A DNA stretch of 64,000 bases from Flavipsychrobacter stenotrophus (GCF_002954265.1 NZ_PPSL01000006.1:310001-374000); one strand, 5' to 3'. Shown: positions 36,935 to 60,192, counted from the stretch's first letter. Numbers and translations are program-made. The notes: generated by a model from the letters alone, not told the origin.

Positions 36935-36936
36935 AG

Positions 36937-38783: not shown

Positions 38784-38814
38784 ATCATCTATTGTAATTT
38801 GACTTTATCTGAGA

Positions 38815-39975: not shown

Positions 39976-40045
39976 GTTATGTATAAAAATTATTAGTTGA
40001 AAATGTTTACCTATTTGTCACTATTAGCCTATCGAAGGGCGACTA

Positions 40046-41909: not shown

Positions 41910-41923
41910 ACAGCATTTAAATC

Positions 41924-43540: not shown

Positions 43541-43558
43541 CACACAAATTTTTCAAAA

Positions 43559-44008
43559 ATGCCTTACACTCCAATAATAGTGCCCGCCGATCTCTCTACT
43601 CACGTTTACGCGCCCATCATTAATGAGATCGCCGAAAACAACAACGACACAATAGTAAGTGCCATCAGCATGGCCATTGATGAAGCAAAGATGTACCTCA
43701 CCCGGTACGATCTCATTGCAATCTTTGGTGATCCTGGTACCAACGTAGCGGCCACATTTACTCCCGATGCCATGTTGCTAAACATCATCAAGACCATTGC
43801 CGTCTGGAATCTTATGAATCTGGCAAATCCTAACCTTGACTATGAACAGTGGCAAAACCGTTACAAGCAAATGATCAGCAGCCTGAAGGACATACAAAAG
43901 GGCTTAGCCGATCCCCGCTGGCCATACCAGGACTATACCGATACCACCACCCCCGACAGCATAGAGGTATATGCTGTGTCTAACGAAAAAGCAAATAATT
44001 CATATTAA
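43559..44008 (+). CDS. gp36-like (DUF1320-type) head-tail adaptor
   Basis: 149 aa, mostly helical, with ISMAIDEAKMYLTRYD near the start as in DUF1320 proteins and a C-terminal DPRWPYQDY patch. It lies between terminase and portal genes. Its stop is adjacent to the portal start. Confidence 0.6.
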   Translation: MPYTPIIVPADLSTHVYAPIINEIAENNNDTIVSAISMAIDEAKMYLTRYDLIAIFGDPGTNVAATFTPDAMLLNIIKTIAVWNLMNLANPNLDYEQWQNRYKQMISSLKDIQKGLADPRWPYQDYTDTTTPDSIEVYAVSNEKANNSY

Positions 44009-44009
44009 T

Positions 44010-45350: not shown

Positions 45351-45370
45351 GAGGGCACTACACTATAAAA

Positions 45371-46618
45371 ATGCTCGACCGGCATTACACGGGACATAAC
45401 CATAGCCTTGGCGTAACCATGTCCGGAAGTGAAACAGACTTCTCAGCCATGTGCAACCGCATTGCAGAGCAGCTCTATAGCGCGAAGATCAATCAAGGTA
45501 CAATCCCAAAAGATATGTACGAGGCTACAGCCGGTGAGTTGATGGATGCCGTATTTAATGGCTTAGGCAAGCAGAAGACATTCACTTACGAAGACCCGCG
45601 CAATCTCCTGGTTGCACACCTCCGGCAGAATATCTATGCCTACAGCGCCGCTAAGTCTTTAACCGAAATGAAAGTCTTTAACGACCTCATGATTGACAAG
45701 GACGGCAAGCTAAAGCCATTCAAACAATACCGGGATGACGTAGCGAAGGCAGGATATACATTCAATGTAAACCACCTGCAAATCGACTACAACACCGCAC
45801 TTGCATCGGCCCAGGTGGCACAGTCATTCAATGAATTTGGTCCTGACGATTATATTGAAGTCCGCACCACCGGTGCAGAGAATGTGTGTCCTATTTGCGG
45901 CCAGCTCAACGGCTTTACCCGCCTGAAGAGCGCTACCATATGGGCCACGTTCTGCCCACCGTTCCATCAGCAGTGCAATTGCAAGCTCATACCCGGACAG
46001 CACCGTAATGTCAGGAAACACGATGCGCCTTTAAAAATGCTCAGGGAAGCCGGTGTAAAACCCTACTTCCAGTCCAATCCCGCCATCAATAAAGTAGTCT
46101 TTACCGATGACTACCCACACATGCAAAACCTTAAAAAAGGCACACCATTACATTGGGATAAGGCGTATAACCTACCATCATTAGACCGCATTTACATGGA
46201 TAAGTTACCTACCCCCGTTACCCTCAATACAAAGGCGGCAGCAAACGAGTGGTGGACCCAAAGGACAGGCACAAAAAAAGGAGAGTTCCTTGTAAAAGAC
46301 AAATTGGGTACAGTAATCAAAGTGGATAACAAATTTCGTAACCACGTATTTGAGCAAAACAAGGAAGCTCGGTTTACACACCTGGCCAACTTAGATGAGA
46401 TACTACAAGACCCTGACGAAATTTGGAGTACTAAAACTAAAAAAGGTAATCTCATCACAACATACATACGCTACTATGATAACTTCCCTTATTGTGTCCA
46501 GGTCGATGATGATCGCGCCTTTACCATGATGCGCTATGATATTATGGGGACCGGTAAACCAAATGAAAAGTCTTTAGAGCAAGACAGGTCCGGAGTACTT
46601 CTTCATAGAAATAATTAA
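45371..46618 (+). CDS. Mu gpF-like head morphogenesis protein with C-terminal nuclease-like domain
   Basis: 415 aa. Residues about 100-220 are the Mu gpF/SPP1 gp7 minor head domain, with its metal-binding pattern CPICG ... HQQCNCKLIPG. Beyond residue about 310 a separate domain begins (FLVKDKLGTVIKVDNKF ... NLDEILQDPDEIWST ... YDNFPYCVQVDD). It resembles the phage-associated Barnase/EndoU/ColicinE5/RelE-like nuclease (PBECR) domains often fused to gpF. The nuclease call is from pattern memory. An alternative start is ATG 45419. Confidence 0.75.
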   Translation: MLDRHYTGHNHSLGVTMSGSETDFSAMCNRIAEQLYSAKINQGTIPKDMYEATAGELMDAVFNGLGKQKTFTYEDPRNLLVAHLRQNIYAYSAAKSLTEMKVFNDLMIDKDGKLKPFKQYRDDVAKAGYTFNVNHLQIDYNTALASAQVAQSFNEFGPDDYIEVRTTGAENVCPICGQLNGFTRLKSATIWATFCPPFHQQCNCKLIPGQHRNVRKHDAPLKMLREAGVKPYFQSNPAINKVVFTDDYPHMQNLKKGTPLHWDKAYNLPSLDRIYMDKLPTPVTLNTKAAANEWWTQRTGTKKGEFLVKDKLGTVIKVDNKFRNHVFEQNKEARFTHLANLDEILQDPDEIWSTKTKKGNLITTYIRYYDNFPYCVQVDDDRAFTMMRYDIMGTGKPNEKSLEQDRSGVLLHRNN

Positions 46619-46744
46619 GCCATTGCGTTCCCGGTGAAATGCGTAAGACGGCATCATCGGCACAATGGCTTAATAACACCACAAATATATAAAATAACCG
46701 GCAAATTGAGCCATTGAGCTATTGAGCCATTCAGCCATTAAAAT
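46617..46744. other. Spacer with hairpin and GAGCCATT tandem repeats
   Basis: AAGCCATTG (46618 onward) pairs with CAATGGCTT (about 46663-46671). A short tandem array of (T)GAGC(C/T)ATT units follows at about 46706-46738, just before the gpG-like gene. No gene is seen. Confidence 0.5.
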
Positions 46745-47311
46745 ATGACACCCGAACAATTCAAACAGGAAACCGAAAGAAGAGCAAGGCAGCTGGAGAA
46801 CTATGTCCTGCACGTTTTCCCTGTCAGGGCGGGTAAAATGGCGCTCCGGTTTATAGATGGCAACTTTCATGCTCAGGGATGGCAGGGGGCCACATTTCAG
46901 CCGTGGGCGCCCAACAAAACAAGAACGCGCATACTTGTCAAGCGCGCCTTTCTCCTGCGCAGCTTCCATTATACACCCAGGCAGGGAGAGGTAAGGATAT
47001 TTAGCAATTCGCCTTATGCCTACGTTCACAATTTCGGTTTTCATGGCAAGGTTACCGTTAAGGCATATACCAGGCACAAATACGCAGCTAAGAAAATTGG
47101 CACTGGCCGGTTCAATAAAAACGGCACTGAGCGACAGAAGACAATACACATGATCACCGATTCTACTGAAGTAAGATCTCACACCAGGACAATGAACATA
47201 AAGCAACGTCAGTTCATGCCAAAAGATCAAAACGACAGTCCGATATTCAACAATGCCCTGAAGCGGGAGATCACCCGGGAACTAAAAAACATCTTTGATC
47301 CAAAAACTTAA
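46745..47311 (+). CDS. Virion morphogenesis protein, Mu gpG-like
   Basis: 188 aa. FQPWAPNKTRTRILVKRAFLLRSF and YAYVHNFGFHG are close to the pattern of the phage virion morphogenesis family (gpG/P2 gpS), which joins head to tail. Basic protein. Confidence 0.75.
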   Translation: MTPEQFKQETERRARQLENYVLHVFPVRAGKMALRFIDGNFHAQGWQGATFQPWAPNKTRTRILVKRAFLLRSFHYTPRQGEVRIFSNSPYAYVHNFGFHGKVTVKAYTRHKYAAKKIGTGRFNKNGTERQKTIHMITDSTEVRSHTRTMNIKQRQFMPKDQNDSPIFNNALKREITRELKNIFDPKT

Positions 47312-47316
47312 AAAAC

Positions 47317-47901
47317 ATGAACAGCCAAAACGCAAACATCTTTCTTGCCATACAGCAGCGCATCGAATCACTGGTCGATAGCAGTAACAGCAACAAACGT
47401 TACTTCGCTACTATCGACATGGACCTCCAGCAGCTCAATTTCGATCAGCCACCAATTAAATTTCCTGCAAGCCTTATCGGCGGGTTCAATTTCGACTATA
47501 AGCACGGCGGCCAGCTTGCCCGTTTTGGCTCAGGCCAGATCACAGTAAAAACATGCTTCACCCCCTACAGCTCCAGCAGCAACCTCACTCCTCAGCAATA
47601 CCGCGAAAAGGCGCTCAACTATTTCAACCTCGACCAGATCATTTACCTATCCCTACACGGTTGGAAACCCGAATACATTGTTGATGGTGTTGATCAGCTT
47701 GCCAATGTTACCGGACACCTTATGTGCGTCAGTGAACGTAGACTGCCCCGTAACGATGATATTATCGTTACGGAGCAAACATTCATGTTGGGTAAAGACG
47801 ACTACAGCGCAAAACCTGTAAAGGGCTTAGTCCCACGCCCAGAGGTTAAGGTCATCACCGATGGAGAACATGCAGAAGAATTCGGTAACGAGTACAACTA
47901 G
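47317..47901 (+). CDS. Phage neck/tail-completion-type protein
   Basis: 194 aa, 5 bp after the gpG-like gene. Alpha/beta with a well-defined core but no family recognised. Tail terminator (Mu gp37) is the expected function at this place, by position only. Confidence 0.45.
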   Translation: MNSQNANIFLAIQQRIESLVDSSNSNKRYFATIDMDLQQLNFDQPPIKFPASLIGGFNFDYKHGGQLARFGSGQITVKTCFTPYSSSSNLTPQQYREKALNYFNLDQIIYLSLHGWKPEYIVDGVDQLANVTGHLMCVSERRLPRNDDIIVTEQTFMLGKDDYSAKPVKGLVPRPEVKVITDGEHAEEFGNEYN

Positions 47902-47930
47902 TTTATATTTTAAAAACACAAAGCAACAAC

Positions 47931-48617
47931 ATGAAGAAGATCTTGATTGCCATTTTAATAGTGGCCACACACGCACCGGCATTCGCCCAGTCCCAAACTA
48001 TTAGCCAGGAAAACACCACCCTGAAGAATACCGTTGATACCGGTATAACAAACAAAAATGCGGTTAACAAGGTTCGGGCGGCTACAGAGGGCGCAATTAT
48101 GAAAAAGGTAGTAGACTATGCTCTAAAGGTCTACGATTCCACCAAGGCATCACTTGAAACGAAACTGGATAAAACGGACAGAACCATTTTTGCAACTACC
48201 TACAGTCGCGATACCCTGAGCACTAATATCAGGAACTGGGTAAGGGAATTCATTGCGTCTGACGGCACCGATATTCAAACTATCGCTTTCGGATCGCCAT
48301 ACTCCAGTACTGTGCAGGTACCCATCAGTGCCAAAGTAACTATCGTTAAGGTTACAAACATTATGTTCGGCCCATCAACCATTGCCTCCGCTCCTGGTAA
48401 TAATGTGGGCGATCTGCTGTATTATATTATTGAGGGAAGTGGCAGCCAGAATTATAGTGTAATATATGGCGCACCCTTTGCCCCGTTCGAGGGCCGCTAC
48501 AAAGGGCCGGTGAGCTTCCAGCCACAAGCGGTTAGTTTGGTCGCCAATTCTACTAGCTTATGGGTTTGGGATGGGGCTTACTGGAATCTTGTCTCACACT
48601 CCGAAAATTACAATTAG
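47931..48617 (+). CDS. Exported phage protein of unknown function
   Basis: 228 aa. Signal peptide MKKILIAILIVATHAPAFA, cleavage near AFA-QS. A helical part (residues 25-90) is followed by a beta domain. Last gene of the rightward operon, ahead of a strong terminator. Third phage protein of this kind in the element. Confidence 0.65.
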   Translation: MKKILIAILIVATHAPAFAQSQTISQENTTLKNTVDTGITNKNAVNKVRAATEGAIMKKVVDYALKVYDSTKASLETKLDKTDRTIFATTYSRDTLSTNIRNWVREFIASDGTDIQTIAFGSPYSSTVQVPISAKVTIVKVTNIMFGPSTIASAPGNNVGDLLYYIIEGSGSQNYSVIYGAPFAPFEGRYKGPVSFQPQAVSLVANSTSLWVWDGAYWNLVSHSENYN

Positions 48618-48628
48618 CGCATGCCAAT

Positions 48629-48657
48629 AAAAAAGCCCCTATCACAGGGGCTTTTTT
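48629..48657. terminator. Strong bidirectional terminator
   Basis: AAAAAAGCCCCT pairs perfectly with AGGGGCTTTTTT over a 5-nt loop. It separates the rightward head operon from the converging Zn-ribbon gene. Confidence 0.9.
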
Positions 48658-48676
48658 ATTATATCAGCTATTTTAA

Positions 48677-49024
48677 CTACCACGTATAATTACATTGCAA
48701 ACACTTTCTCTTGATCTTATTCGCTCCTACTGCACCAAACAACAACCCAAATACCCACATAATAACGGAGAACGGCAACATGAGCAAAGCCATCAGGCAA
48801 CCCTTACCGGCACTATAGCCCTTTTTATAAGCATGAATACTCTCGCTTCCACACTTCGGGCAGGTCACTACCTTTCCAACCACTGGCTGATCCTCATTTT
48901 TATAATCAGCCCATTTCTTCAGCCGTGCAGCCTCTTTATCATCTACCGTTAGTCCAGCACCACAGCTATTGCAGAACTTTGCACTATCAGCATTATCTTT
49001 CATACAACCAGGACACATTTTCAT
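48677..49024 (-). CDS. Zinc-ribbon membrane protein
   Basis: 115 aa. Double zinc ribbon at the N-terminus (CPGC, CNSC), another CPKC motif at mid-protein and CLQC at the end, with one hydrophobic segment (LMALLMLPFSVIMWVFGLLFG). Likely an accessory (moron) gene at the end of the leftward early/middle region. Confidence 0.65.
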   Translation of the reverse strand: MKMCPGCMKDNADSAKFCNSCGAGLTVDDKEAARLKKWADYKNEDQPVVGKVVTCPKCGSESIHAYKKGYSAGKGCLMALLMLPFSVIMWVFGLLFGAVGANKIKRKCLQCNYTW

Positions 49025-49098
49025 GACGTGAGTTATTTTTTACAATTATACAATAAATACGCAGTCTATCTACTATCTACTAACGACTATCTACTGGT

Positions 49099-49665
49099 TT
49101 AAACAGCATTTAAATAGGCTTTATACACCTTTTCAATTTGAGTGATCAGCACGCTCAGCTCTTCACTGCAATGATCATTAAGCGGCTTCTTATACTTACC
49201 ATACGTCACACACCACCCATTCACCTGCTCCATATCTAGCTTTCTCCTGGGCGGTTGTTCCGAAGACATGGTAAGTGTCGCCTTCTTGTTCACACTGCTG
49301 GTATTCACCCCCTCATACCAACCCAGCAAATGGGCAAAGTGCAATATCTTCCTTCGTTTTTTATCCTCTTCAGGATTCACCTTAAGTTTCTGTTCTTTCT
49401 TCGGCGTTGATCCTAGCTGCACAGTATTTGTATTTCCCGTCCGGGTCAATCGCTCCAGCGCTGCAATCATATCCTTTGCTTCCTTCCAGCTTAGCGCAGT
49501 GGTGCTGGTAGCTCTGCCGTCAGTATAATCGCGTACTAGGTTCTCTTTATACCGCTTCATTTCGCCCTTATCTTCCAGTCCGGGTATCTGTGACAGTAGC
49601 ACATGTATCTTGGCTATTTGCCCCTTATTTACCAGATATTCACCAGTATAGTTTGCTTTGCTCAT
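49099..49665 (-). CDS. GemA-like regulatory protein (Mu gp16, DUF1018)
   Basis: 188 aa. N-terminal helical region with KGQIAKIHVLLSQ and a C-terminal helical region that includes KILHFAHLLGWY fits the gp16/GemA family. In Mu this protein modulates host gene expression. The first T of the 19-bp motif copy at 49097 lies beyond its stop. Confidence 0.65.
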   Translation of the reverse strand: MSKANYTGEYLVNKGQIAKIHVLLSQIPGLEDKGEMKRYKENLVRDYTDGRATSTTALSWKEAKDMIAALERLTRTGNTNTVQLGSTPKKEQKLKVNPEEDKKRRKILHFAHLLGWYEGVNTSSVNKKATLTMSSEQPPRRKLDMEQVNGWCVTYGKYKKPLNDHCSEELSVLITQIEKVYKAYLNAV

Positions 49666-49774
49666 CCAATTAATTTTTGTGTTATTAACTAAGTAGAAGC
49701 CCGGCTATGGCGAAAAACGGCAGCTAGTATAGCCCTGTGCGGTAGCGCGATTTTTTAGCCCGGCGCTTTCTTTG

Positions 49775-49806
49775 TTACTTTCTTTACGCTGTAGTAAAGA
49801 AAGTAA
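49775..49806. terminator. Hairpin with perfect 12-bp stem
   Basis: TTACTTTCTTTA pairs with TAAAGAAAGTAA across 8 nt, just downstream of the stop at 49811 on the minus strand. No U-tract follows, so it may be a repeat-derived hairpin. Confidence 0.5.
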
Positions 49807-49810
49807 AAGC

Positions 49811-50182
49811 CTATTTATCAAAGTCAGGAAACGTTTCACTCCATACCATTCGTGGCCACCGCTCTCTGAACCATTCCAGATCCGGCCTTTGCGCCTTCAG
49901 CTTACCCAACTCTACATCTAGCGTATCCACTACCTCTTTAATGCGTGTCGGCGACAAGTCAAAATCTTGGATCATAAGTTTCATTACCACCTCATTTTTC
50001 ACAAGGGGAAAGAAATGCCGATAGTAGAACAACCTCGCAGCCAGCTTTCTATTACGAGCTTCCGCCAGCTCCATTATTCTGCCGGGCTTCCTTGGCGCAT
50101 CAGGCACCACACCAAACAGGTCCACACTGGATACCACCTCCGGTTCAGGCAACAGACTATCAAACGCTTTATCCCCTTTCAT
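49811..50182 (-). CDS. Hypothetical early/middle phage protein
   Basis: 123 aa with a helical C-terminal half (LMIQDFDLSPTRIKEVVDTL ... WFRERWPRMVW). Overlaps the upstream gene by 4 bp. Mu has its middle regulator Mor near here, but no homology is visible. Confidence 0.5.
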   Translation of the reverse strand: MKGDKAFDSLLPEPEVVSSVDLFGVVPDAPRKPGRIMELAEARNRKLAARLFYYRHFFPLVKNEVVMKLMIQDFDLSPTRIKEVVDTLDVELGKLKAQRPDLEWFRERWPRMVWSETFPDFDK

Positions 50183-50655
50183 TTGCTGAATTTTTCTTCT
50201 TTGTCTTTTTTCTCTTTCAGATACACTTTAAACCATTCGTCCCTAAAATGCCCGCGCAGGTATGTGTCAGGGTATTGTTGATTGTACCAGGGCGATTGCT
50301 TGCAGTACCATTGGTAGGAGAACATGTTTGCATGCACATACCGCTTATCGTAGGCTGCTTTGGCCTTCCATAGCTTATCCGCAATCAGCTTATTCCGGGC
50401 GTGGTCAAATATTAACCAGAAACGATCGAACGACAGATCATCGTCTATTTTGATGGTCGTTCTGCCTTCCGCCTTCACCCATGCATTGAACGATTCGTGA
50501 GTAAGTGCATTTCTGAGAGACTTAAGAACCGATTCCCGCTGATCCTGTGGCATCTTGTATGCGCAGTTTTTAAACTCTATCAGGAAACCATCCTGATCAT
50601 ACTCATACATCAGGTACCCCTCAAACTTTTTAGATATAAGTACATATTTATGCAT
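50179..50655 (-). CDS. Hypothetical phage protein
   Basis: 158 aa, rich in Lys, Trp and Tyr (MFSYQWYCKQSPWYNQQY). Nucleic-acid binding is possible from the composition. Followed by the 123-aa gene with 4-bp overlap. Confidence 0.5.
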   Translation of the reverse strand: MHKYVLISKKFEGYLMYEYDQDGFLIEFKNCAYKMPQDQRESVLKSLRNALTHESFNAWVKAEGRTTIKIDDDLSFDRFWLIFDHARNKLIADKLWKAKAAYDKRYVHANMFSYQWYCKQSPWYNQQYPDTYLRGHFRDEWFKVYLKEKKDKEEKFSK

Positions 50656-50656
50656 A

Positions 50657-51391
50657 TCAATTCTTCTTTTGCATTTCCAATTCCCTTTGTTGCTCTATCG
50701 CCTCATCGTGCCAGTTATGCACCACCTCCATTTCTTGTTCAGCCTTCTTAAAAAACAGCGGATCTACTCGTCTGGCCTCTTTGAAGTACACTACATAGTT
50801 ACCGCTACCGCCAACCCTGTTTTTCATCTTACGGGCTATATACTTAAATACCCTCACCGAAAACTTACCATCATATTCAATTTTCTGACCGACTTTGCTT
50901 TCAGGTGCGCCATTTTTCTCATGGCTCAGGAAGATGATCCCTTTCTTACCTCCGTACTTTTCCTTCAGGTAGTAATATTCCTCTGGTGTTATGTCTAAGT
51001 AATCCAGGCTATCAATGAACACAAATTCAGGGGTACTGCGCTTGCTTAGGTAATCGTCCAGCTCCTGAAACTTGGTCTTCCCCTTTTGCCTTTTTTGTAG
51101 TGGATCAATCGGTAGGAACTTGCCAGCCTCTTCTTGCATATTGTTTCTGATAGAGGCCATCTGAAAATCAAAATCATGTCCCTGCTCGTAACTCAGCCAG
51201 GCCACCCGCCCAAATTTGCAGAGGTATTTTGCTAACCGGATGCAGAACTCTGTTTTCCCCTGTCCGCTCTTCCCGTAAATGATCCCGATAAAATTGAGAG
51301 CCAGGTTACCAATGAAAAACAGCCATTCATCTTTAAACCCCAAAAACTTAAATTTCTTCTTATGAAACTGATCTATACCTAATACCTTCAT
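50657..51391 (-). CDS. RecA/DnaB-like P-loop ATPase
   Basis: 244 aa. Walker A GKSGQGKT (40-47) follows IIY, and Walker B is FVFIDSLDYLD. Fold resembles RecA-like ATPases of phage replication or recombination. It is coded downstream of the DGR in the same direction; a role in DNA transactions of the phage is likely, a link to the DGR is open. Confidence 0.75.
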   Translation of the reverse strand: MKVLGIDQFHKKKFKFLGFKDEWLFFIGNLALNFIGIIYGKSGQGKTEFCIRLAKYLCKFGRVAWLSYEQGHDFDFQMASIRNNMQEEAGKFLPIDPLQKRQKGKTKFQELDDYLSKRSTPEFVFIDSLDYLDITPEEYYYLKEKYGGKKGIIFLSHEKNGAPESKVGQKIEYDGKFSVRVFKYIARKMKNRVGGSGNYVVYFKEARRVDPLFFKKAEQEMEVVHNWHDEAIEQQRELEMQKKN

Positions 51392-51407
51392 TTTTCGATA
51401 GTGTTAT

Positions 51408-51788
51408 TTAGTACTTAAAATCTGTCCAGTGGATTATCTTACCCTCAAAGTCCTCATCGAACCACTCCATAAACTCACCCATGGTCTTAAATCCATCATT
51501 TCTCGCCAGTTCCAGCACCGAAGCATCATCCAGCCGCTTGCTATCAACAATGATCACAGGAGCCAGTACCTCACCCGGCACCTTTCCGTAATACCGTATC
51601 TCTACATGCTGTAGCCTGGTAACTACCAGATCATCACGAAAGCACTCATACGCCTTAGTCCTTACACCCGTGGCCATCTGTATTTTCATACCTACCTTCC
51701 ACCTGCCGGGCTTATCCTCGCGCATGCTGTGCAGCTTACTGCCATCCATCAGCTTCGGCTTAAACGGCTTTTTAAATCCTAGTATCAT
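51408..51788 (-). CDS. ASCH-like small protein
   Basis: 126 aa from ATG 51788 (MILGFKKPFKPKLMDGSK); an in-frame ATG at 51830 is less likely. SKLHSMREDKPGRWKVGMKIQMATGVRTK resembles ASCH-type beta-barrel proteins that bind RNA or modified nucleotides. Tentative. Confidence 0.6.
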   Translation of the reverse strand: MILGFKKPFKPKLMDGSKLHSMREDKPGRWKVGMKIQMATGVRTKAYECFRDDLVVTRLQHVEIRYYGKVPGEVLAPVIIVDSKRLDDASVLELARNDGFKTMGEFMEWFDEDFEGKIIHWTDFKY

Positions 51789-51801
51789 AATTATTGGTTG
51801 T

Positions 51802-52095
51802 TTAAGTGAATTGAAAAGACCCATCATCATTTTCCACTATAGTAGTACTGATCGGGAAATTGTCCTTTGATACTTTCTGTATAACATCTATCAGGTGTTT
51901 CGACCCGGTAAATACTACATGCTTGCTATTGTTAACTTCTATTTGCAAATGCAGGCACTTATCAGTGTATTTGCTATTTTGTATTTTGTAGTCGTGTACT
52001 ACTATCTGCTTATTGAGCACCTTACCAATCTTCACCTTATCTCCTGTAAAATGCTCACGTTCGCTTTTTATATTTAATTCTGAGAATGTTTTCAT
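51802..52095 (-). CDS. DGR-associated conserved small protein
   Basis: 97 aa. MKTFSELNIK ... GKVLNKQIVVHDYKIQNSKY ... CLHLQIEVNNSKHVVFTGSK suggests a small beta-barrel. Its 5' end overlaps the RT gene by 41 bp, implying coupled translation. From memory, similar proteins adjoin RT genes in Bacteroidota phages. It does not look like the four-helix Avd protein; it could be an alternative accessory factor or a single-strand-binding protein. Confidence 0.6.
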   Translation of the reverse strand: MKTFSELNIKSEREHFTGDKVKIGKVLNKQIVVHDYKIQNSKYTDKCLHLQIEVNNSKHVVFTGSKHLIDVIQKVSKDNFPISTTIVENDDGSFQFT

Positions 52096-53041
52096 TGGTT
52101 AATTTTTTCTCCAGATGCTTTCCATCCGCATGTGTCAACCAGCCTTTATAGGCTGCAATAGACTGCATATCAGGATTAGAGGCCATCATGCGCGCAAAGC
52201 TCTTTTTTATGGATTTTCGGATTAGTGTATGTGAATGATAAATTTTATACCCTACAAAGTCAAGACCTCTGGTATCTATCGGGAAAACTTGGTAATTGTC
52301 TTTTACTTCAAGGTTCAGATTACATTCCATGTATTCCCTGATCAGCGCGAGCACTCTGTGTAGTTCATTTTTATTGCTACTTAGTATTACCAGATCATCA
52401 GCATACCTGAAGTAGTATTTTACTTTCACTACTTCTTTCAGCCAGTGATCAAAATAGCTTAGGTAGAAATTAGCAAGAAACTGGCTCAGGTAGTTGCCGA
52501 TAGGTAAACCCTCTGCGCTGTCAATGATCTCGTCAAGCAGCCAAAGTAGATCAGCATCCTTTATTTTACGCCTTAATAGCGCTTTCAATATGTCGTGATC
52601 TATACTAGGGTAAAACTTCCGTATATCCAGCTTCAGACAATACTGTGTGTTTTGCTTGTCTTTAAATGCTTTTTTAACCGCCTTTAAAGCTCCGTGGATA
52701 CCTCTACCTGTTATGCAGCTATATGTGTCCGCTGTAAACAGTTTCATTAGCACTGGTTCCAGCACTACCATTATTGCATGGTGTACAATCCTGTCAGGGT
52801 AGTAAGGCAGCTTGCTCACTATTCTTTCCTTCGGATCAGTTATTTTAAAGGTCACATACTTTGATGTATGATAGCTGCGTGTCACCAGTGATCTATGAAT
52901 AGCCAGTATATTGTCTTCCCTGTTGGCATCATGCGCTATGATCTCCTTTTTGTTGCGTTTCCTTTTACGAGCCAGCATATCTGCCACTTCTAGGTTATGC
53001 ACGCTGCATATCTCTTCGTATATGTTATTTATTCTTTTCAT
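52055..53041 (-). CDS. DGR reverse transcriptase
   Basis: 328 aa from ATG 53041 (an in-frame TTG at 53080 is less likely). RT motifs in order: LDIRKFYPSID (139-149), the DGR-typical IGNYLSQ (181-187) and the catalytic YADD (213-216). LDFVGYKIY follows. Group II introns and retrons carry different residues at the IGNxxSQ site, which supports a DGR enzyme. It would copy the TR RNA just upstream with adenine errors and send the cDNA to the VRs. Confidence 0.93.
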   Translation of the reverse strand: MKRINNIYEEICSVHNLEVADMLARKRKRNKKEIIAHDANREDNILAIHRSLVTRSYHTSKYVTFKITDPKERIVSKLPYYPDRIVHHAIMVVLEPVLMKLFTADTYSCITGRGIHGALKAVKKAFKDKQNTQYCLKLDIRKFYPSIDHDILKALLRRKIKDADLLWLLDEIIDSAEGLPIGNYLSQFLANFYLSYFDHWLKEVVKVKYYFRYADDLVILSSNKNELHRVLALIREYMECNLNLEVKDNYQVFPIDTRGLDFVGYKIYHSHTLIRKSIKKSFARMMASNPDMQSIAAYKGWLTHADGKHLEKKLTNENILRIKYKKRT

Positions 53042-53147
53042 AGCCTTTGCTTTGTTGGTCTTTTTCCCTTTCGGTACCAAAGCCCGTTGTTAAGCGTAAT
53101 TTTTTGCCATGTTGGCAAGGCTTGCACTGTTTATTTATAAGCAATGT

Positions 53148-53213
53148 GGGCACCGACATTCGTGTTCGTGTTCTCGTTGTCGTAGTCGTTCAGAACCCAA
53201 CCGGAACCGGGAA
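53148..53213 (-). ncRNA. DGR template repeat (TR)
   Basis: 66-bp core in the non-coding gap between RT and target gene 1. Read in the target frame it gives GSGWVL followed by N-D-Y-D-N-E-N-T-N-T-N and VGA. All 16 coding-strand adenines of the core fall in this stretch. The 10 nt after it (GTCGGTGCCC) match the VRs; beyond that TR diverges, as expected for the TR/VR difference at the initiation-of-homing side. Confidence 0.92.
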
Positions 53214-53255
53214 ACGGAACACCCTCGTCAGGCATACAGCGCGCCACCTTTAATA

Positions 53256-53624
53256 TTATTCACCTTCACCCAGTAGGTCTCGGTACAGGTCTATGAAGGT
53301 TCCACCCATCTCCATTGCCAGGGCGCTCGTTTTGAGGGCGAGGCGGGCACCGACATACGTGCACGCGTACCCGCCGACGTAGCCGTCCAGAACCCAACCG
53401 GAACCGGGAACATACTCAAACCATGGGAAGTACTTATACTGGCTCCTTTCGGCATAATTGGCTTTCCACCCATCATTGTTCGCTTTTACCAGTATTTGCA
53501 GCTTATACTGTGCTATCACTCCTTTTTGCTCCTCAGTGGGCAGCATCGATACGTCTGGCAGCTCTGTGCCAATTTTAAGGTGAGCACATGCAGCCTCAAA
53601 ACTTGTGAATTTTACTTCTTTCAT
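53256..53624 (-). CDS. DGR target protein 1
   Basis: 122 aa, no signal peptide. The variable residues are 80-90 (D-G-Y-V-G-G-Y-A-C-T-Y), flanked by YFPWFEYVPGSGWVL before and VGARLALK after. The conserved C-terminal helix (FIDLYRDLL) follows, so VR is internal rather than terminal. VGARLAL resembles the VGFRLA of C-type-lectin-fold DGR targets. The closest relative is target protein 2 next to it. Confidence 0.9.
   Translation of the reverse strand: MKEVKFTSFEAACAHLKIGTELPDVSMLPTEEQKGVIAQYKLQILVKANNDGWKANYAERSQYKYFPWFEYVPGSGWVLDGYVGGYACTYVGARLALKTSALAMEMGGTFIDLYRDLLGEGE
53345..53410 (-). repeat. DGR variable repeat VR1
   Basis: 66-bp core with 11 differences from TR. All 11 correspond to adenines of the TR on the coding strand. 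Confidence 0.92.
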
Positions 53625-53654
53625 TTTTTATTTGTTGATTGATTAAATGAATAA

Positions 53655-54023
53655 TTACTTCTGACCGCTCAGCAAGTCGCTGTATAGCCCTATGAACTCA
53701 CGGCCCATTTCTTTGGCTAATTCTGCCGATTTGAGGGCGAGGCGGGCACCGACATACGCGCCCGTGTACTCGAGGCCGCAGTCGTCCAGAACCCAACCGG
53801 AACCGGGAACATACTCAAACCATGGGAAGTACTTCCTCTGGTTGTCATCCTTATAATCAACCACCCAGTCACCGTTATTGGCCTCTACCAGCACCATTAG
53901 CTTATGATGGGCCACTAGTGCCTTGCCATACTTCTCGGCAAGCATTGATACATCAGGCAGCGCCGTACTGATATTGAGCTGCGCACATGCAGCCTCAAAA
54001 CTTGTAAATTTTACCTCTTTCAT
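53655..54023 (-). CDS. DGR target protein 2 (paralogue)
   Basis: 122 aa, same length as target 1. Variable residues 80-90 read D-D-C-G-L-E-Y-T-G-A-Y. The N-terminus (MKEVKFTSFEAACA) and YFPWFEYVPGSGWVL are nearly identical to target 1 while the middle differs, indicating an older duplication rather than an assembly copy. Likely first gene of the DGR operon. Confidence 0.9.
   Translation of the reverse strand: MKEVKFTSFEAACAQLNISTALPDVSMLAEKYGKALVAHHKLMVLVEANNGDWVVDYKDDNQRKYFPWFEYVPGSGWVLDDCGLEYTGAYVGARLALKSAELAKEMGREFIGLYSDLLSGQK
53744..53809 (-). repeat. DGR variable repeat VR2
   Basis: 66-bp core with 10 differences from TR, all at coding-strand adenines of TR. Seven of the ten sites are also changed in VR1, three to a different base. 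Confidence 0.92.
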
Positions 54024-54058
54024 TTTTGTTTATGGTTTTATGTAACTAAAAAAATATA

Positions 54059-54247
54059 CTAGTCTTCTATCCACCCGCACCTGTTACACCAGGCTACGGT
54101 ACACCCAATCGCCGCCACACACTTCCCTATACCAAGACATTCCATCAAATTACCTTCCGGTATAAACACTCTGTCGGCTGCGGTCGGTTGCAATACCTTT
54201 AGATGATCTGGTAATTGATCAGCCTGCATTTCATTTGGCTTGTTCAT
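54059..54247 (-). CDS. Small Cys-containing phage protein
   Basis: 62 aa. The C-terminal CLGIGKC ... GCTVAWCNRCGW contains five cysteines, probably metal-binding. Start directly follows the stop of the upstream gene. Confidence 0.5.
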   Translation of the reverse strand: MNKPNEMQADQLPDHLKVLQPTAADRVFIPEGNLMECLGIGKCVAAIGCTVAWCNRCGWIED

Positions 54248-54481
54248 TTATTCCTTATTTAAATACCGTTTAAATTGCTCTTCAAGAATGATCGGCCTGC
54301 TTTTCCCTGGATGGCCTTCAGAGTGGGTGAGGTGGAAACCCCTGCACTTATCGCAGGGGTAAAATCGCACCGGTATCACCTCCCTTGGTCTTTTCCGTAT
54401 TTTCTTCAGGGCTTCCTGTGCGTCCACATCATTTCTAAACCGCTTCTTACCACTTATACACCTGGTCATATGCCCTCCCAT
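54248..54481 (-). CDS. Small zinc-finger-like phage protein
   Basis: 77 aa, very basic, with CDKCRGFHLTH giving a C-x2-C-x3-H-x2-H finger. Met5 (MTRCISGKK) is an alternative start. Common type in early regions of Bacteroidota phages. Confidence 0.6.
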   Translation of the reverse strand: MGGHMTRCISGKKRFRNDVDAQEALKKIRKRPREVIPVRFYPCDKCRGFHLTHSEGHPGKSRPIILEEQFKRYLNKE

Positions 54482-54687
54482 TCATCACGGTCATCAATCT
54501 TTTTTATAGACTCTTCATCTATACACTTCATCACTATAGGTATAGCCAGTATAAAATATAGTGGAGTTACATCCCTATTTTGAACCGCTACCAGGCACAG
54601 AAATAAAGTCCCGAATACGCCTATAATAGCCCTTAATGCGTTTACCGATAGATTGTCCTTTGCAGGCTCGTTTTGATTGTTCGGCAT
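54466..54687 (-). CDS. Small membrane protein
   Basis: 73 aa with one or two hydrophobic segments (IIGVFGTLFLCLVAVQN and LYFILAIPIVM) and an acidic C-terminus. Overlaps the next gene by 16 bp. Function unknown. Confidence 0.5.
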   Translation of the reverse strand: MPNNQNEPAKDNLSVNALRAIIGVFGTLFLCLVAVQNRDVTPLYFILAIPIVMKCIDEESIKKIDDRDEWEGI

Positions 54688-54757
54688 GTTGTAGATTACT
54701 TAAGAAGGTGAGATAATGATCGTGTTTGGTTTCGCGGGTGGTCATTGCAGAGATCGT

Positions 54758-55291
54758 TTAAGCGGTTACCTCCAGTTTCTTCAGCTCCACGTAGAACTTT
54801 TCTTCCTGGGCAACCTTTATTCCCAGAGCAGAGAACTTTTTAGATAACTCTTCCTTATCCCGATCAGCCAGCAGCAATTCCTTGTTAGGCTCTTCTACAG
54901 TTCTCACATACGCGTCCAGTTTCTGTTCCTTCAGGCGGGCGGTCAGTATATCCAGTGTTACACCCGATAACGTTTTGATGCTTGGAGGGTCTTTACGGAA
55001 GCCTATTTTTGCATAAAGCGTATCGAAGCTCTTCATCTTGTCAGTCATAAGCTCATGACGCTTTTCAACGCTGTAGGCTTTTATGGTTGCGAATAGTAGC
55101 GCCTGTTCAGCCTTCACAAGATCAATGTCAGACGAGAAGTCTTCCTTAATAGCCTGTATTTCTTCCTCCAGTTCAGCATTCAGCTGGCTCAGCTTGATGT
55201 CATTTTGGCTGTAAGTGATCAGCGCCTTATCAAACTGCTCTTTAGTGATCTCTTTGCTCAGAGACTCGCTCTTTCTTTTGTTTCTGCTCAT
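54758..55291 (-). CDS. Host-nuclease inhibitor Gam-like
   Basis: 177 aa from ATG 55291 (MSRNKRKSES). A long coiled coil (residues about 25-100) followed by KIGFRKDPPSIKTL and the C-terminal VAQEEKFYVELKK is the Mu Gam pattern. Gam binds double-strand ends and blocks host exonucleases. Confidence 0.8.
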   Translation of the reverse strand: MSRNKRKSESLSKEITKEQFDKALITYSQNDIKLSQLNAELEEEIQAIKEDFSSDIDLVKAEQALLFATIKAYSVEKRHELMTDKMKSFDTLYAKIGFRKDPPSIKTLSGVTLDILTARLKEQKLDAYVRTVEEPNKELLLADRDKEELSKKFSALGIKVAQEEKFYVELKKLEVTA

Positions 55292-55292
55292 A

Positions 55293-55508
55293 TTAGTTGT
55301 TATTAATTGTTTTAATGATTTCTTTACCGCCATTGATGACGTTATTCACATGCGCCACCAGTTCCCATATTTCCTGTTGCAGCTCTTCTTGCTGTTCCGG
55401 TGCAGCATCCTTTTTAAGGCGTCGCAGTACAGCTATTTCACGCAGCAGCGCACTTGCCTTTTCCTTATCGCTGCCACTCAGGGCATTGATGTCTATTTTC
55501 TGTCTCAT
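55293..55508 (-). CDS. Hypothetical early phage protein
   Basis: 71 aa, helical (LLREIAVLRRLKKDAAPEQQ), probably a coiled-coil hairpin. One base before the Gam gene start. No family recognised. Confidence 0.5.
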   Translation of the reverse strand: MRQKIDINALSGSDKEKASALLREIAVLRRLKKDAAPEQQEELQQEIWELVAHVNNVINGGKEIIKTINNN

Positions 55509-55840
55509 ATGAATAGGGGTTCTTTACTTTTTTTGTCAATCGATTGAATGATCCCGTTTAGGATCGTCGCTGGGTAGGGCTGCATCGGGAAAGGCTTGCT
55601 GTTCCAGAACTGTATGAACGCACGTGCTGTGCTGGCGTTGAGCGTTAGCGTATAATTCACCTGCTCTTTATTACACATAGTGCTTATCTGTTCATAAAAA
55701 TCACACACGTGGTCATGCCATAGCTGTTCTTGCTCATTTTCTGGTTTATATCCACTAATTACTGCTTCGTACAACGCAACCAGCATTTCAAGCTTTCTGT
55801 GGTCAATTTTTAGCCTTACTTTTCTATCCTGTTTAGCCAT
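55505..55840 (-). CDS. Hypothetical early phage protein
   Basis: 111 aa. Basic N-terminus (KQDRKVRLKIDHRK), helical core. Overlaps both neighbours by a few bases. No family recognised. Confidence 0.5.
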   Translation of the reverse strand: MAKQDRKVRLKIDHRKLEMLVALYEAVISGYKPENEQEQLWHDHVCDFYEQISTMCNKEQVNYTLTLNASTARAFIQFWNSKPFPMQPYPATILNGIIQSIDKKSKEPLFI

Positions 55841-56085
55841 TATTTCTTAATTATTACTTCGTTATAGGTTATTTCTTTACTCAGCGTCAGTCCGGCCACA
55901 AAGGCGGTGATCTTGAAGTGATATTCAAAGGAGGTGACAAAGCCTACCAGTTCTTCTTTTTCAGCGTCTGTTTTAAATAGGCTATACTCCGCAGGCCCTG
56001 TTTGTCTTATGCTGTAAACACCATCCACATCCCTTAGAGTGAAGCGTTTTATTTCGCTCAGCTGTGCTATTCCATTAGGCTGCAT
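55840..56085 (-). CDS. Hypothetical early phage protein
   Basis: 81 aa beta-rich protein. Overlaps the upstream 166-aa gene by 11 bp. Function unknown. Confidence 0.5.
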   Translation of the reverse strand: MQPNGIAQLSEIKRFTLRDVDGVYSIRQTGPAEYSLFKTDAEKEELVGFVTSFEYHFKITAFVAGLTLSKEITYNEVIIKK

Positions 56086-56575
56086 GGCTCACCTCCTTTC
56101 CTTTATTCCCACCCGTTGTCATGGTGAGCCTCGCCGAACCATTCTTGTCATCCTGAGCCCCGCCGAAGGACGAACCATCGGTGATCAGGTCTAGCACACC
56201 ACACAATTGCTCCAGCAGCGTCAGGTAGGTAGGATGATCTTCTCGGAAAACATTCAGGTGCATATCGTGGTACACGTTGTAGCGTTCGTTGATGGTTACC
56301 TTATGCAGGAAGGGGAGAATTGTCCAGTGATCATACTGCCGCCAGTTCAGGTTCCACCATCGCAGTACTTTGGGTTCCATCCACAGGCTTTCGCTTTCCC
56401 TCTGGCTTATGCCTGCCTTGTGTAGGTTTTTCACAAGCCACTCTCTGCCCATATCCAGTTTCAGGTTCAGCAGCTGCTCAGGCATCAATCCTGTAAACTG
56501 CATTACCGCCGCTTCATCAGCCTTAAACTGAGCCCTCCAGTACCCCGTCTTACTTACCTTTTTTGCGTTTCTCAT
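56075..56575 (-). CDS. Hypothetical early phage protein
   Basis: 166 aa, Trp-rich (KVLRWWNLNWRQYDHWTILP). The segment coding residues about 122-150 contains stretches resembling host dispersed repeats (CCTGAGCCCCGCCGAAGGACGAACC on the plus strand, split here as CCTGAGCC and CGAAGGACGAACC), so the C-terminus may derive from repeat DNA. Overlaps MuB-like gene by one base. Confidence 0.5.
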   Translation of the reverse strand: MRNAKKVSKTGYWRAQFKADEAAVMQFTGLMPEQLLNLKLDMGREWLVKNLHKAGISQRESESLWMEPKVLRWWNLNWRQYDHWTILPFLHKVTINERYNVYHDMHLNVFREDHPTYLTLLEQLCGVLDLITDGSSFGGAQDDKNGSARLTMTTGGNKGKEVSHAA

Positions 56576-57498
56576 TAGGCAGCCTTTTTAGTTGCATTCA
56601 TACGCTTGTGCTTTGCCACTTCCTTCCTAAGCACCCTCAGAGACAACCCCGAACGGGTCAATATATCCTTGCGCAATTGCGTATCAGCTTCCGGCAGGTT
56701 CAGTTGCAGTATCTGCAAGGCCGTTTCCTTGCGCATTACCGATACAGAAGCCTCACTATCATACTGCTCGGTAATAGCCTGAAATTTGCGGTTAAAACGG
56801 TCAAACAATGCCTCCCAACCCAGCTTACGTTTAGCCAGCATCTTATTGATCTTCACGCCCAGTGTATCATCACCTATTATGTACCAACCTGTGCCGCCCT
56901 CAGTCACATCATACAGCCCCTTTATTTCCATCCAGCAGTTATCATTCATGTAACCGGCATCATCCAGTACCACCAGTGGGTTTTGAAGGCGCAGCAATTC
57001 CAGTTCCACACGCTCCCTTATCTTCCGCACCTGGTCACCATGTTCAAGGCCAAGATTTTGAGCCATTTCACGCAGCAGATCAGCGCGGGTTATACCTTGT
57101 CTGCATTTCACATAGATCACGTTCTGATGAGTAGCCGCATACACCTCCGCGCTATGCGTTTTGCCTATCCCTACCAGGTCGCAATTGATTGCGCTAAGGC
57201 TATCCTGTTGGCACATGCTCAGCTGAGCAGTCACAAAGCCAAAAACGGCAGTTCTCGCAGTCTTCCACCCATTCTCACTCAGATCACAAAACAGCTTCTT
57301 GCCAATGCGCACCCATTCCACCTCACTCAGCACCTTATCAATGTCCCCTTTGCTTATCCGGCTGTAAGAACCCGGATTGATCTGCAAATACTGAGCATGA
57401 TTAGCTTGCTTATAACCACTGTCAGAATGTTGGCGCATTTTTAAGTCCTCAGCTATCGCCTTAGCTACCATTTGCTTGTGTGTCTGTGTGATCTGCAT
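56575..57498 (-). CDS. MuB-like transposition ATPase
   Basis: 307 aa. An N-terminal HTH (SYSRISKGDIDKVLSEVEW) precedes an AAA ATPase with Walker A GIGKTH (110-115) and Walker B LVVLDDAG. MuB selects target DNA, stimulates the transposase and gives target immunity. Coded downstream of the transposase as in Mu. Confidence 0.85.
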   Translation of the reverse strand: MQITQTHKQMVAKAIAEDLKMRQHSDSGYKQANHAQYLQINPGSYSRISKGDIDKVLSEVEWVRIGKKLFCDLSENGWKTARTAVFGFVTAQLSMCQQDSLSAINCDLVGIGKTHSAEVYAATHQNVIYVKCRQGITRADLLREMAQNLGLEHGDQVRKIRERVELELLRLQNPLVVLDDAGYMNDNCWMEIKGLYDVTEGGTGWYIIGDDTLGVKINKMLAKRKLGWEALFDRFNRKFQAITEQYDSEASVSVMRKETALQILQLNLPEADTQLRKDILTRSGLSLRVLRKEVAKHKRMNATKKAA

Positions 57499-57533
57499 AA
57501 CGTATGATATTTTATGTTAATTAAATAGTGCTT

Positions 57534-57812
57534 TTATTTTCCTGCGGTAGCTACTTCCTGAAGAACTTTTAACAGGGTTTGCTCTACTACGCTACCCTCA
57601 ATCGGCCCTTGGAAATCAGTCGGCCCTTGAAAATTTTGAATGTTGATTACCGTCACTTTACGGCCTAACAGCATGTCCATTTCATACATGAACTTGAAAA
57701 AATCTTCCTGCGTCATGCGCTCAATTAGATCAGTTGCTGTTCCTTGCAGGTAGCATACATCTGTAGCCATCCCCGATACTTTTACCCTCTGAACAAACCC
57801 TAATAGTGTCAT
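57534..57812 (-). CDS. Small phage protein between transposase and MuB
   Basis: 92 aa (possibly starting at Met15). Contains EDFFKFMYEMDMLLGRKVTVI, helical then beta. No family recognised. Confidence 0.5.
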   Translation of the reverse strand: MTLLGFVQRVKVSGMATDVCYLQGTATDLIERMTQEDFFKFMYEMDMLLGRKVTVINIQNFQGPTDFQGPIEGSVVEQTLLKVLQEVATAGK

Positions 57813-57850
57813 TTTTAAGCTTTTAAGTGATTATTTGAATAGATTTTCGG

Positions 57851-59935
57851 CTATAATGCCCACTGGGCGGCACTTTCAATAGAATTGCCATTCGGTACAC
57901 TTACCACGCTAACCCCCTCTTTTTGCTTATACCCCCCCCTTTTACTCGTCTTTTTTGGCACAAAACCCACATTATCAGGCTCCTCAAACTCGTCAGAAGT
58001 GCTGTTTACTACCACCTCTTCCACCACTTTTAGCGTCTCGCCCGCTTCAAAACCATCAAATCTGGCAGTCCCAAGTACCGAATAGCTGCCTTGCGTCTCA
58101 CGTACCATCTTATCAAATGCTGCCTGATACGCCCACTGCTTGTCAGCATTCGCCCTGTCAGCATCGGTCATTTCTGCCTGTGCCTCCTGGAATGGGATCA
58201 CCTTTGTTGCCTCAGCAATGAATTTGCCATATTGATACAGGTAAACCTTTTCTATACCCTCTGGTCCGGGGATGTAGTATGCGTCAAACTTCCATGTCTT
58301 CAGTTCGCGCAGTATGTTGATGTTCGGTAGGCGGTAGCTATTTTTCATTACCTGCACGTACCCGCGTTTGATGCTCGTTTCTCGGGCCTTGTAGCCTACG
58401 TAAGGCATTATTGCCGATGTGGCATGGTGCACAAGGTTCGGGTTCTGGCAGTTTTCCAGTACGTCCCATCTGCTCATGCCGGGGTATAGTTCCTGGTTCG
58501 GGTGCAGCGAATTGTTCCAGCTGTTGATGTCGTCCAGATCGTTCTGTATGATCTGCTCGTAAGCATACCTCACCTTGTCCTTATCTGTATTCAGGCGGTT
58601 GGCTATGTTACGGGCGTAAAACCTGCCTTGGAACCCCGGGCGCTTATTGTCGAAGGTGTATTTCTTCTGGCGGAAGATGTGCTCCATTCTTTTCTCAGGC
58701 GCATTACCACCCAGGCACACACGTACATGCTTAAACAGGTTACCGGCGGTAAGAATATCGTCTTCAAACTGGCCGTCCACTTCCTTACCCATCATTTGGG
58801 CAGTCAGGTGGCGTTCCATTTCTATTTCAAATGGCATACCCCAACCGTTGCATAGTATTGTTTGGAACATATCGCGGAAGGCTTCCCTCAGCAATTCCAC
58901 GTTCTTATCTGTGCTGAAAGCCTTGCCTATAATCGCACCGCTGGCCACATCAGCTATCTGGTAAGTTTTAGCAGGGCGGTTACCGGTCATATCCTTAAAT
59001 GGTAGGTCGCGGTCATCCATTGTTAGCTTGCTAAAAGCATATACCGGTGCCATACGTTGCACATATGGGCGGTGAAGCGCACGCCACTGTAGGTTATTGA
59101 GCCTCTTTTTATTGATAGCTATCTGCGCTGCCGGTCTCTTCAGGTAGAAGTCAACTGTACTTTCACCCAGTGGAAATGGCTCACCTTTTACATAGAATTC
59201 CTGCGGGTTAAACACCTCACCGGTATTAATATCCACCACCTGTAGTTTGTTGTAGATGAAGTCGCGGTACATGCGGCATACTTCCACCAGTGTCGTTTCC
59301 TGTTTCATAAAGTACAGGCTCACTATCAGGTTTTCAATTTTTGGCGTCACCTTGCGGGTGTTCTGGTTACCAAACTTCTTACTGATCAGCGCCACCGGCC
59401 CTTCCGAATTGTACTTAGCCAGCAGCTTGCGCAGTGGATCATATGCCTTCGGTAGTTTAGGGTTTACCGGTCTGTCTCCCTGATGCAGATCAATTACATA
59501 TTCCCAAAAGGTCTTAATACTGATGCCCAAAGTATCTTTCAGCATCTTGCGGTCCGTTAGTACCAGGTTGATCATGTTAAGCCATTCAGCCTGTCGGGTA
59601 TACACCTGCTGTGCATCCAGTGGTAAGTGTCCACCACCGGCTTTTATGTGACCGGCGAATATATTAGCTGCCTTATAGTCCACACTGATCAGCTTAGTTA
59701 TCGGCTGCTTTGAGATATACTTATGTAGATCATTGCCGTATTTGGCTGTTATTTTCTCCTGGCATTTAGCCGGTATAGTATCGAATTCTATAAGTACTCC
59801 GTTACCATTACCACCCCTGCCATGCACCCGCATAAGTTGGGTCTTATGGTACTTGTAGTTACTTTCCGTCATGAAGTCCGGAACTAACTCACTATACTCT
59901 AAACAGATTATGGTTGTGTGTGCTAAATATCTCAT
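57851..59935 (-). CDS. MuA-like transposase
   Basis: 694 aa. A central integrase/RNase H catalytic domain begins near residue 285, with the first acidic residue in KLTMDDRD and a following YQIADVASGAIIG strand. The next acidic segment is FEIEMERHL, then EKRMEHIF for the final Glu. A beta-barrel (Mu-transposase C-terminal-like) domain follows, with VPNGNSI near the C-terminus. It catalyses cut and strand transfer for lysogenisation and replicative transposition. First large early gene. Confidence 0.9.
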   Translation of the reverse strand: MRYLAHTTIICLEYSELVPDFMTESNYKYHKTQLMRVHGRGGNGNGVLIEFDTIPAKCQEKITAKYGNDLHKYISKQPITKLISVDYKAANIFAGHIKAGGGHLPLDAQQVYTRQAEWLNMINLVLTDRKMLKDTLGISIKTFWEYVIDLHQGDRPVNPKLPKAYDPLRKLLAKYNSEGPVALISKKFGNQNTRKVTPKIENLIVSLYFMKQETTLVEVCRMYRDFIYNKLQVVDINTGEVFNPQEFYVKGEPFPLGESTVDFYLKRPAAQIAINKKRLNNLQWRALHRPYVQRMAPVYAFSKLTMDDRDLPFKDMTGNRPAKTYQIADVASGAIIGKAFSTDKNVELLREAFRDMFQTILCNGWGMPFEIEMERHLTAQMMGKEVDGQFEDDILTAGNLFKHVRVCLGGNAPEKRMEHIFRQKKYTFDNKRPGFQGRFYARNIANRLNTDKDKVRYAYEQIIQNDLDDINSWNNSLHPNQELYPGMSRWDVLENCQNPNLVHHATSAIMPYVGYKARETSIKRGYVQVMKNSYRLPNINILRELKTWKFDAYYIPGPEGIEKVYLYQYGKFIAEATKVIPFQEAQAEMTDADRANADKQWAYQAAFDKMVRETQGSYSVLGTARFDGFEAGETLKVVEEVVVNSTSDEFEEPDNVGFVPKKTSKRGGYKQKEGVSVVSVPNGNSIESAAQWAL

Positions 59936-59946
59936 CGGAATCAGGT

Positions 59947-60192
59947 TTACTTGTTCACTTTCGCTTTTACATCATTCATCAACTTGCTCATACCCTCCTG
60001 TAGAAGATCATCAGCAAGTGTTACTCGCTTAGCTTTTTCACCTGTACCCCGTTTCCCTGCACGTACCTTATTCACAAGGTCAACGCTCGTATTGGTAACT
60101 AGTGCGGTCATTCTGGGCGGTACTGTTACTTCAATGCTGGTCGCAAATGATCCCTTACTTGTTTGCTTGACGTTTGAATTCATAATACTCAT
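59947..60192 (-). CDS. Small early protein in Ner position
   Basis: About 81 aa from ATG 60192 (or ATG 60183). Middle and C-terminus are basic and helical (KVRAGKRGTGEKAKRVTLAD). It is the first gene after the early promoter, where Mu codes the Ner regulator. No HTH motif is clear. Confidence 0.55.
   Translation of the reverse strand: MSIMNSNVKQTSKGSFATSIEVTVPPRMTALVTNTSVDLVNKVRAGKRGTGEKAKRVTLADDLLQEGMSKLMNDVKAKVNK

Follow-up and report, generated by a model that had tools for sequence, protein, structure and literature searches.

A Diversity-Generating Retroelement with Two Small Early-Operon Targets in a Mu-Like Prophage

Introduction

What does a diversity-generating retroelement (DGR) diversify when its targets are small proteins encoded among the early genes of a prophage, and which accessory protein serves it when the prophage has no Avd? 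Three components, a reverse transcriptase (RT), a template repeat (TR) and a variable repeat (VR), are taken as required for a DGR (PMC8144416). All coordinates below are those of the window, a single stretch of 64,000 nucleotides, in which an original prediction, made from this DNA alone, had placed a complete and formerly active DGR in a Mu-like prophage. The overlapping accessory gene, the structured RNA of the spacer and the setting of the targets in the early operon, apart from the tail genes, go beyond that prediction.

The Retroelement and Its Prophage

The DGR reverse transcriptase gene (52055..53041, minus strand) encodes a protein with YADD and IGNYLSQ motifs that matches Pfam RVT_1 and the PHROG reverse transcriptase family (3.9e-123). 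The reverse TRANSCRIPTASE comprises 328 aa from an ATG at 53041, while a 341-aa frame starts at an upstream TTG. Its best PDB match is the RT of the BPP-1 DGR (8ub7), to which residues 3-289 align with an E value of 1.8e-39 and 139 bits; the next match, a group II RT, reaches 65 bits. The YADD and SQ motifs are intact and aligned with those of the BPP-1 enzyme. NCBIfam models of defence RTs (DRT), retrons and group II introns all score far under their cut-offs, and the PADLOC matches of the RT reflect generic RT similarity, not a defence system. With a DGR-type RT whose YxDD is intact, a nearby non-coding TR and coding VRs that differ from it at adenines, the element is a genuine DGR, and its description as complete holds.

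The Mu-like setting is equally clear from the MuA-, MuB- and Gam-like genes and from genes for terminase, portal, sheath and tape measure. The prophage is about 35 kb long and carries Mu-type head genes and contractile-tail genes; its extent in IMG/VR (IMGVR_UViG_2831999959_000001, a record probably of the same genome as the window) corresponds to 24797..60183, with no strand assigned. The early operon runs leftward on the minus strand, from the MuA-like transposase (57851..59935, phrog_310) through the MuB-like transposition ATPase (56575..57498, phrog_296, AAA_22) and the Mu Gam-like end-protection protein (54758..55333, PF07352, 6.8e-24) to the targets, TR, RT and accessory gene. The head genes (terminase, portal) come next, on the opposite strand, and the major head protein, sheath, tape measure and baseplate hub are encoded at 29-40 kb. 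The head block (terminase, portal, minor head) lies on the plus strand at 41457-48617 with minus-strand blocks on either side; the order of early genes, plus-strand head block, and capsid and tail genes is odd for a Mu-like phage. The host appears to be a Chitinophagaceae bacterium and not a Bacteroides.

Adenine-Specific Differences Between the Repeats

The TR (53148-53213, minus strand) is a non-coding repeat of 66 bp between target gene 1 and the RT, 106 nt before the RT start codon. VR1 (66-bp core 53345-53410, 70-bp block 53341-53410) lies within target gene 1 and VR2 (66-bp core 53744-53809, 70-bp block 53740-53809) within target gene 2, both on the minus strand. Program alignment of the TR with the VRs reproduced all repeat coordinates and counts of the original prediction. 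On the coding strand of the 66-bp core, VR1 differs from the TR by 11 substitutions and VR2 by 10, every one of them opposite a TR adenine; 13 of the 16 TR adenines are altered in at least one VR, and both VRs equal the TR at all 50 non-adenine positions. Chance alone would place all differing sites at adenines with a hypergeometric probability of 4e-9 (VR1) or 4e-8 (VR2). The boundary of the 66-bp block was set where non-adenine mismatches start, so that the adenine-only pattern comes partly from the cutting. Extension at the 3' end to the 70-bp block raises the adenine changes to 13 in VR1 and 12 in VR2, and the first mismatch past this block, which falls in the IMH region, is T to C. The paralogous DNA around VR1 and VR2 is only about 69% identical, in contrast to the perfect agreement at the 50 core sites.

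A scan for repeats that differ at one type of letter (A, C, G or T, on both strands of the whole 64 kb) returned only the TR-VR1 and TR-VR2 pairs, and no further copies were found in the 5.43-Mb genome beyond TR, VR1 and VR2. Sites and bases of substitution common to the two VRs show no excess over independent events (P = 0.37 and 0.24). As judged from the repeats, adenine-specific homing has taken place at two sites in the past, and it is for such past mutagenic homing only that the adenine-only differences bear out the prediction of an active element. VR1 and VR2 are also identical to each other for about 25 nt upstream and about 15 nt downstream of the TR-matched core (53411-53435, 53330-53344 and their VR2 counterparts), which may be a sign that gene conversion, and not retrohoming alone, has acted between the two targets.

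The 16 TR adenines all fall in 11 consecutive variable codons (80-90) and occupy codon positions 1 or 2. The variable TR codons are AAC, GAC, TAC, GAG, ACG and AAT, from which adenine changes can reach about 3.1e9 protein variants and no stop codon. In every altered codon of VR1 and VR2, the amino acid differs from that of the TR. The 5' end of the TR consists of 23 nt without adenine.

Two Small Target Proteins

Target gene 1 (53256..53624, minus strand), which holds VR1, and its paralog target gene 2 (53655..54023, minus strand), which holds VR2, are open frames of 122 aa each, whose products are 61-63% identical; target 2 belongs to phrog_11581, annotated as of unknown function. Both belong to the early (transposition) operon, and the tail-sheath gene is about 18 kb away. 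With 29 codons between its end and the stop codon, the VR is not C-terminal, the C-terminus being the usual VR location in DGR targets (PMC8144416). Searches of Pfam and NCBIfam gave no assignment for either target, and no signal or membrane segment was found in them; a hydrophobic stretch above the cut-off is present in only 2 of 91 targets. The AlphaFold model, built from 91 sequences (pLDDT 88.5), predicts the elements H9-16, H30-50, E65-72, E76-84, H100-109 and H111-121, with most variable codons mapping to a low-confidence loop between the beta-hairpin and the two C-terminal helices. A fold search with this model yielded no convincing PDB chain and no C-lectin fold among the listed neighbours, an empty result that does not show a new fold.

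Such mini-targets recur in relatives. A tblastn search against annotated phages gave zero matches; target homologs were found in about 60 RT-linked loci, and in most of 80 IMG/VR relatives of the RT, homologs of 110-200 aa stand in one to three tandem copies before the TR and RT. The arrangement of targets, TR and RT is kept in most relatives. Mini-targets also occur in 24 named genome loci, from Chitinophagaceae, Dyadobacter, Emticicia, Allomuricauda, Apibacter, Sphingobacteriaceae, Dysgonomonas and others, and in roughly a dozen viral loci the flanking genes are homologous to Mu-like genes of the window prophage. The element is part of a large Bacteroidota lineage with one to three tandem mini-targets. 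Target types cluster in the RT tree, yet mini-targets require at least three changes on it, and its details are unsafe given the long branches. Three elements have extra mini-targets with valid VRs at 3.5-10 kb from their TR and RT (L132:2114-2563, L149:1867-2283, L143:1635-2054), and Dysgonomonas sp. PH5-45 (L183:4571 and 5188) apparently has two template repeats alternating with targets.

The function of these proteins can be read in two ways. It is conceivable, if on balance unlikely, that the locus is a phage DGR of the ordinary sort, its small targets being virion adhesins (tail-tip or decoration lectins) whose genes simply stand apart from those of the tail, so that host attachment would be diversified as in BPP-1 or hankyphage. 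Predicted tail proteins do make up the majority of viral DGR targets (Roux 2021, PMC8144416), and over its final 23 columns the VR segment is similar to the VR end of large tail-type targets (hhalign probability 83%), both of which favour adhesins. Because the profile aligns these 23 columns at the VR end, the target VR may still descend from a C-lectin VR cassette. However, in the profile comparison the likeness to large targets stops at the VR end, and the targets stand in the early operon, separated by the head block from the sheath, tape measure and baseplate genes. The surroundings of the targets in relatives also argue against adhesins, since their neighbours are DNA-metabolism and packaging genes: the PHROG families most often found beside them are DNA methyltransferases, an ATPase, terminases, RecT, helicase and integrase, and the 25 commonest include no tail family. 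Target homologs are, moreover, present in phage DNA without a nearby RT (L007:4812-5366 and L133:5336-6076), the first of which adjoins RecT-like and other early phage genes. Given their gene position, their size and the lack of export signals, it is only slightly more probable than not that the targets are non-virion proteins whose action is in or on the lysogenic or infected cell.

Target Choice and Present Activity

No inverted repeat of at least 6 bp follows VR1 or VR2; that is, there is no hairpin or cruciform of the BPP-1 type, 4-34 bp downstream. In relatives, stems of at least 7 bp after the VR were found in 1 of 46 and 0 of 23 cases, the same as in shuffles. Since the BPP-1-type hairpin is absent both here and in relatives, target choice must use the shared adenine-free ends or another signal.

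The missing hairpin, the lack of Avd in the prophage, and the identity of the sole other public copy (in IMG/VR, over the stretches fetched) might be taken to mean that the DGR is a relic that homed in the past and no longer functions. This is improbable, as the RT motifs, the TR, both target frames, the accessory gene and the spacer RNA are all intact, and as relatives without a hairpin have VRs that are equally adenine-specific and diverse (122 TR-VR pairs). The perfect match of VR1 and VR2 at the non-adenine sites amid diverged paralogous DNA also argues against decay.

A Structured RNA Between TR and RT

The spacer between TR and RT (53042..53147, minus strand) is a conserved, structured RNA of 106 nt, of which the part at 53046-53122 is related to the Rfam family RT-17 (RF03020). 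It shares with RT-17 its position between TR and RT and a conserved CCUUGCC/UGGCAAAA hairpin; unlike members of that family, however, it scores 29.5 bits (E 9e-4 in 401 nt), under the gathering score of 40.4. Minimum free energy folding of the TR and spacer alone is not unusual (z -0.88), and the structure is evident only by comparative analysis. Across 44 aligned sequences, 91% of cells are paired in a three-helix structure, and pairing drops to 31-46% in slid controls; two-sided compensatory cells number 99, against 27 +/- 5 in shuffles. A covariance model, R1, whose training set included the window and a few of the loci (or duplicates of them), locates the motif at the 3' end of the TR in practically every named locus, and all of its hits except two adjoin the RT.

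Similar RNAs are found at the same place in other DGRs. RT-17 is detected in 3 of 390 phylum genomes, precisely those that combine a DGR with the OB-fold accessory gene described below and large targets, and each time at the TR-RT spacer. In a relative with this gene and a DGR (L130:4089-4171), RT-17 passes the gathering score exactly in the TR-RT spacer, and in hankyphage (L092:5809-5958) the family RT-3 falls exactly there. These positions suggest that the Rfam RNAs RT-3 and RT-17 are DGR template RNAs. The BPP-1 spacer is reported to fold, to recruit RT-Avd and to prime cDNA synthesis (PMC12875486); by analogy, the spacer of the present element may do the same job.

A Predicted OB-Fold Gene Linked to the Reverse Transcriptase

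The last gene of the element (51802..52095, minus strand; phrog_19665) shares 41 nt with the 3' end of the RT gene and encodes a 97-aa protein with a pI of 8.7 and a predicted OB-fold (SSB-like). In the predicted structure (pLDDT 89.8), strands and helix follow one another as in an OB fold (beta-beta-beta-alpha-beta-beta). The structural neighbours are nearly all SSB, mtSSB, PriB, LEF-3 and RuvBL-OB, at Z scores of 5-6.7 that are below the secure level; no Foldseek match of the model was found at E 0.001, and no Pfam family beyond chance for its homologs. Together, the model and its neighbours are suggestive of an SSB-like OB-fold protein.

Most relatives have a clearly homologous ORF that overlaps or abuts the RT 3' end, and at three loci the two are fused (L162:6004-7290, L167:6001-7266, L079:2542-3777). 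A dedicated search found the gene in 6 of 197 genomes of the family, which are exactly those with mini-targets, and always adjoining the RT. It was also found in 6 of 395 phylum genomes, with a DGR RT adjacent in five; the sixth is a weak, stop-interrupted match (G407, E 3e-4) with no RT nearby, judged to be due to chance. Three of the five phylum genomes with both accessory gene and DGR RT carry large targets, and therefore the accessory gene goes with the RT and not with the target type. Among the named genome loci, it is matched in 22 of 24 with mini-targets and 15 of 24 with large targets; those without it are mainly from Firmicutes, and the two mini-target genomes in which it was undetected are L149 and L174. 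Going by these comparisons, the gene is conserved and RT-linked. The idea that it is merely a neighbouring phage gene outside the DGR, prompted by its downstream, overlapping position and the frequency of such packing among phage genes, is very hard to reconcile with its retention at the RT 3' end over many families and contexts, its three natural fusions to the RT, its presence with both mini- and large targets, and its absence from family genomes without a DGR.

Other small genes occupy comparable positions. Large-target Bacteroidales DGRs (L157-L169) share, at about 7000-7400, a conserved ORF of some 128 aa, which overlaps the 3' end of the RT gene and precedes an OB-like gene. Firmicutes relatives (L185-L196) have no OB gene and mostly carry an ORF of 81-89 aa that either overlaps the 3' end of the RT gene or directly adjoins it and may encode a further accessory. 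As for Avd (PF05635), none is present in the prophage; PF05635 matches occur only on other contigs of the genome (C4, C15), and these Avd-family genes could in principle act in trans. Two new DGR accessory genes were reportedly described in a 2018 NAR survey, and the OB gene may be identical to one of them.

Relation to Known Retroelements

Like the BPP-1 DGR (mtd-avd-TR-brt), the element has a DGR RT, adenine-specific TR to VR transfer, an IMH-like 3' end and a structured spacer between TR and RT (PMC12875486). In contrast to BPP-1, it lies in a prophage without Avd and has instead, at the opposite end of the RT, a predicted OB-fold gene, its targets are two early-operon proteins of 122 aa and not one tail-tip protein, its VRs are not C-terminal, and no hairpin follows them. 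Thus, it lies outside the BPP-1 subtype, as defined by Avd, hairpin and tail target.

The original prediction had cited DGRs in Mu-like phages of Bacteroides as known. Hankyphage (Bacteroides phage p00) is indeed a Mu-like temperate phage of Bacteroidota, with an RT 35% identical to that of the window and a structured RNA between TR and RT, albeit of a different family (RT-3). The comparison breaks down at the target, which in hankyphage is a large, C-lectin-bearing tail fibre, as against 122-aa early-operon proteins in the window element; an Avd-like ORF is also reported in hankyphage (PMC6199706, PMC12135933). Closer by RT are the DGRs of crAss-like phages (for example cr52_1 and cr60_1), which are 54-56% identical over 96% and whose spacer RNA is weakly recognised by model R1. 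Unlike the window element, they have one large tail-type target beside lysis and structural genes. Large targets that adjoin structural or lysis genes are found in crAss-like phages, Bacteroides phage Versailles and hankyphage.

Proposed Mechanism

Taken jointly, the evidence makes it very probable that the locus is a complete DGR from a lineage of Bacteroidota phages. In the proposed working, the early-operon transcript would carry the TR and the structured spacer, which would recruit the RT, with the OB-fold protein assisting instead of Avd, and prime the synthesis of cDNA that enters the TR at its 3' end. The RT would misincorporate opposite adenines, and the cDNA, possibly bound by the OB-fold protein, would home into VR1 or VR2 via the shared adenine-free ends. 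Through homing, 11 loop codons of each of the two small acidic proteins would then be rewritten. Both the target fold and the OB fold in this scheme are structure predictions, and the OB-fold protein would assist cDNA synthesis or protect the cDNA.

Significance

The combination of tandem early-operon mini-targets, a predicted OB-fold accessory gene and an RT-17-like RNA is, as far as checked, new. More tentatively, it is possible, if doubtful, that the element represents a widespread Bacteroidota branch of DGRs in which an OB-fold cofactor and an RT-17-type RNA replace the Avd arrangement, and in which small non-lectin, non-virion phage proteins are diversified. Roux 2021 (PMC8144416) left open whether some targets without recognised domains are genuinely non-membrane and non-structural.

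The locus bears on the identity of the accessory protein in DGRs that lack Avd, and the RT-linked, sometimes RT-fused OB-fold gene and the covarying spacer RNA are directly testable cofactors. As a scaffold, the tandem mini-targets of the early operons are compact and allow about 3e9 variants, none of them with a stop codon. The locus also bears on whether DGR diversification serves anything besides surface attachment: if the proposed branch is real, targeted mutation would there serve recognition inside the cell, for example of host defence or rival phages, and not attachment.
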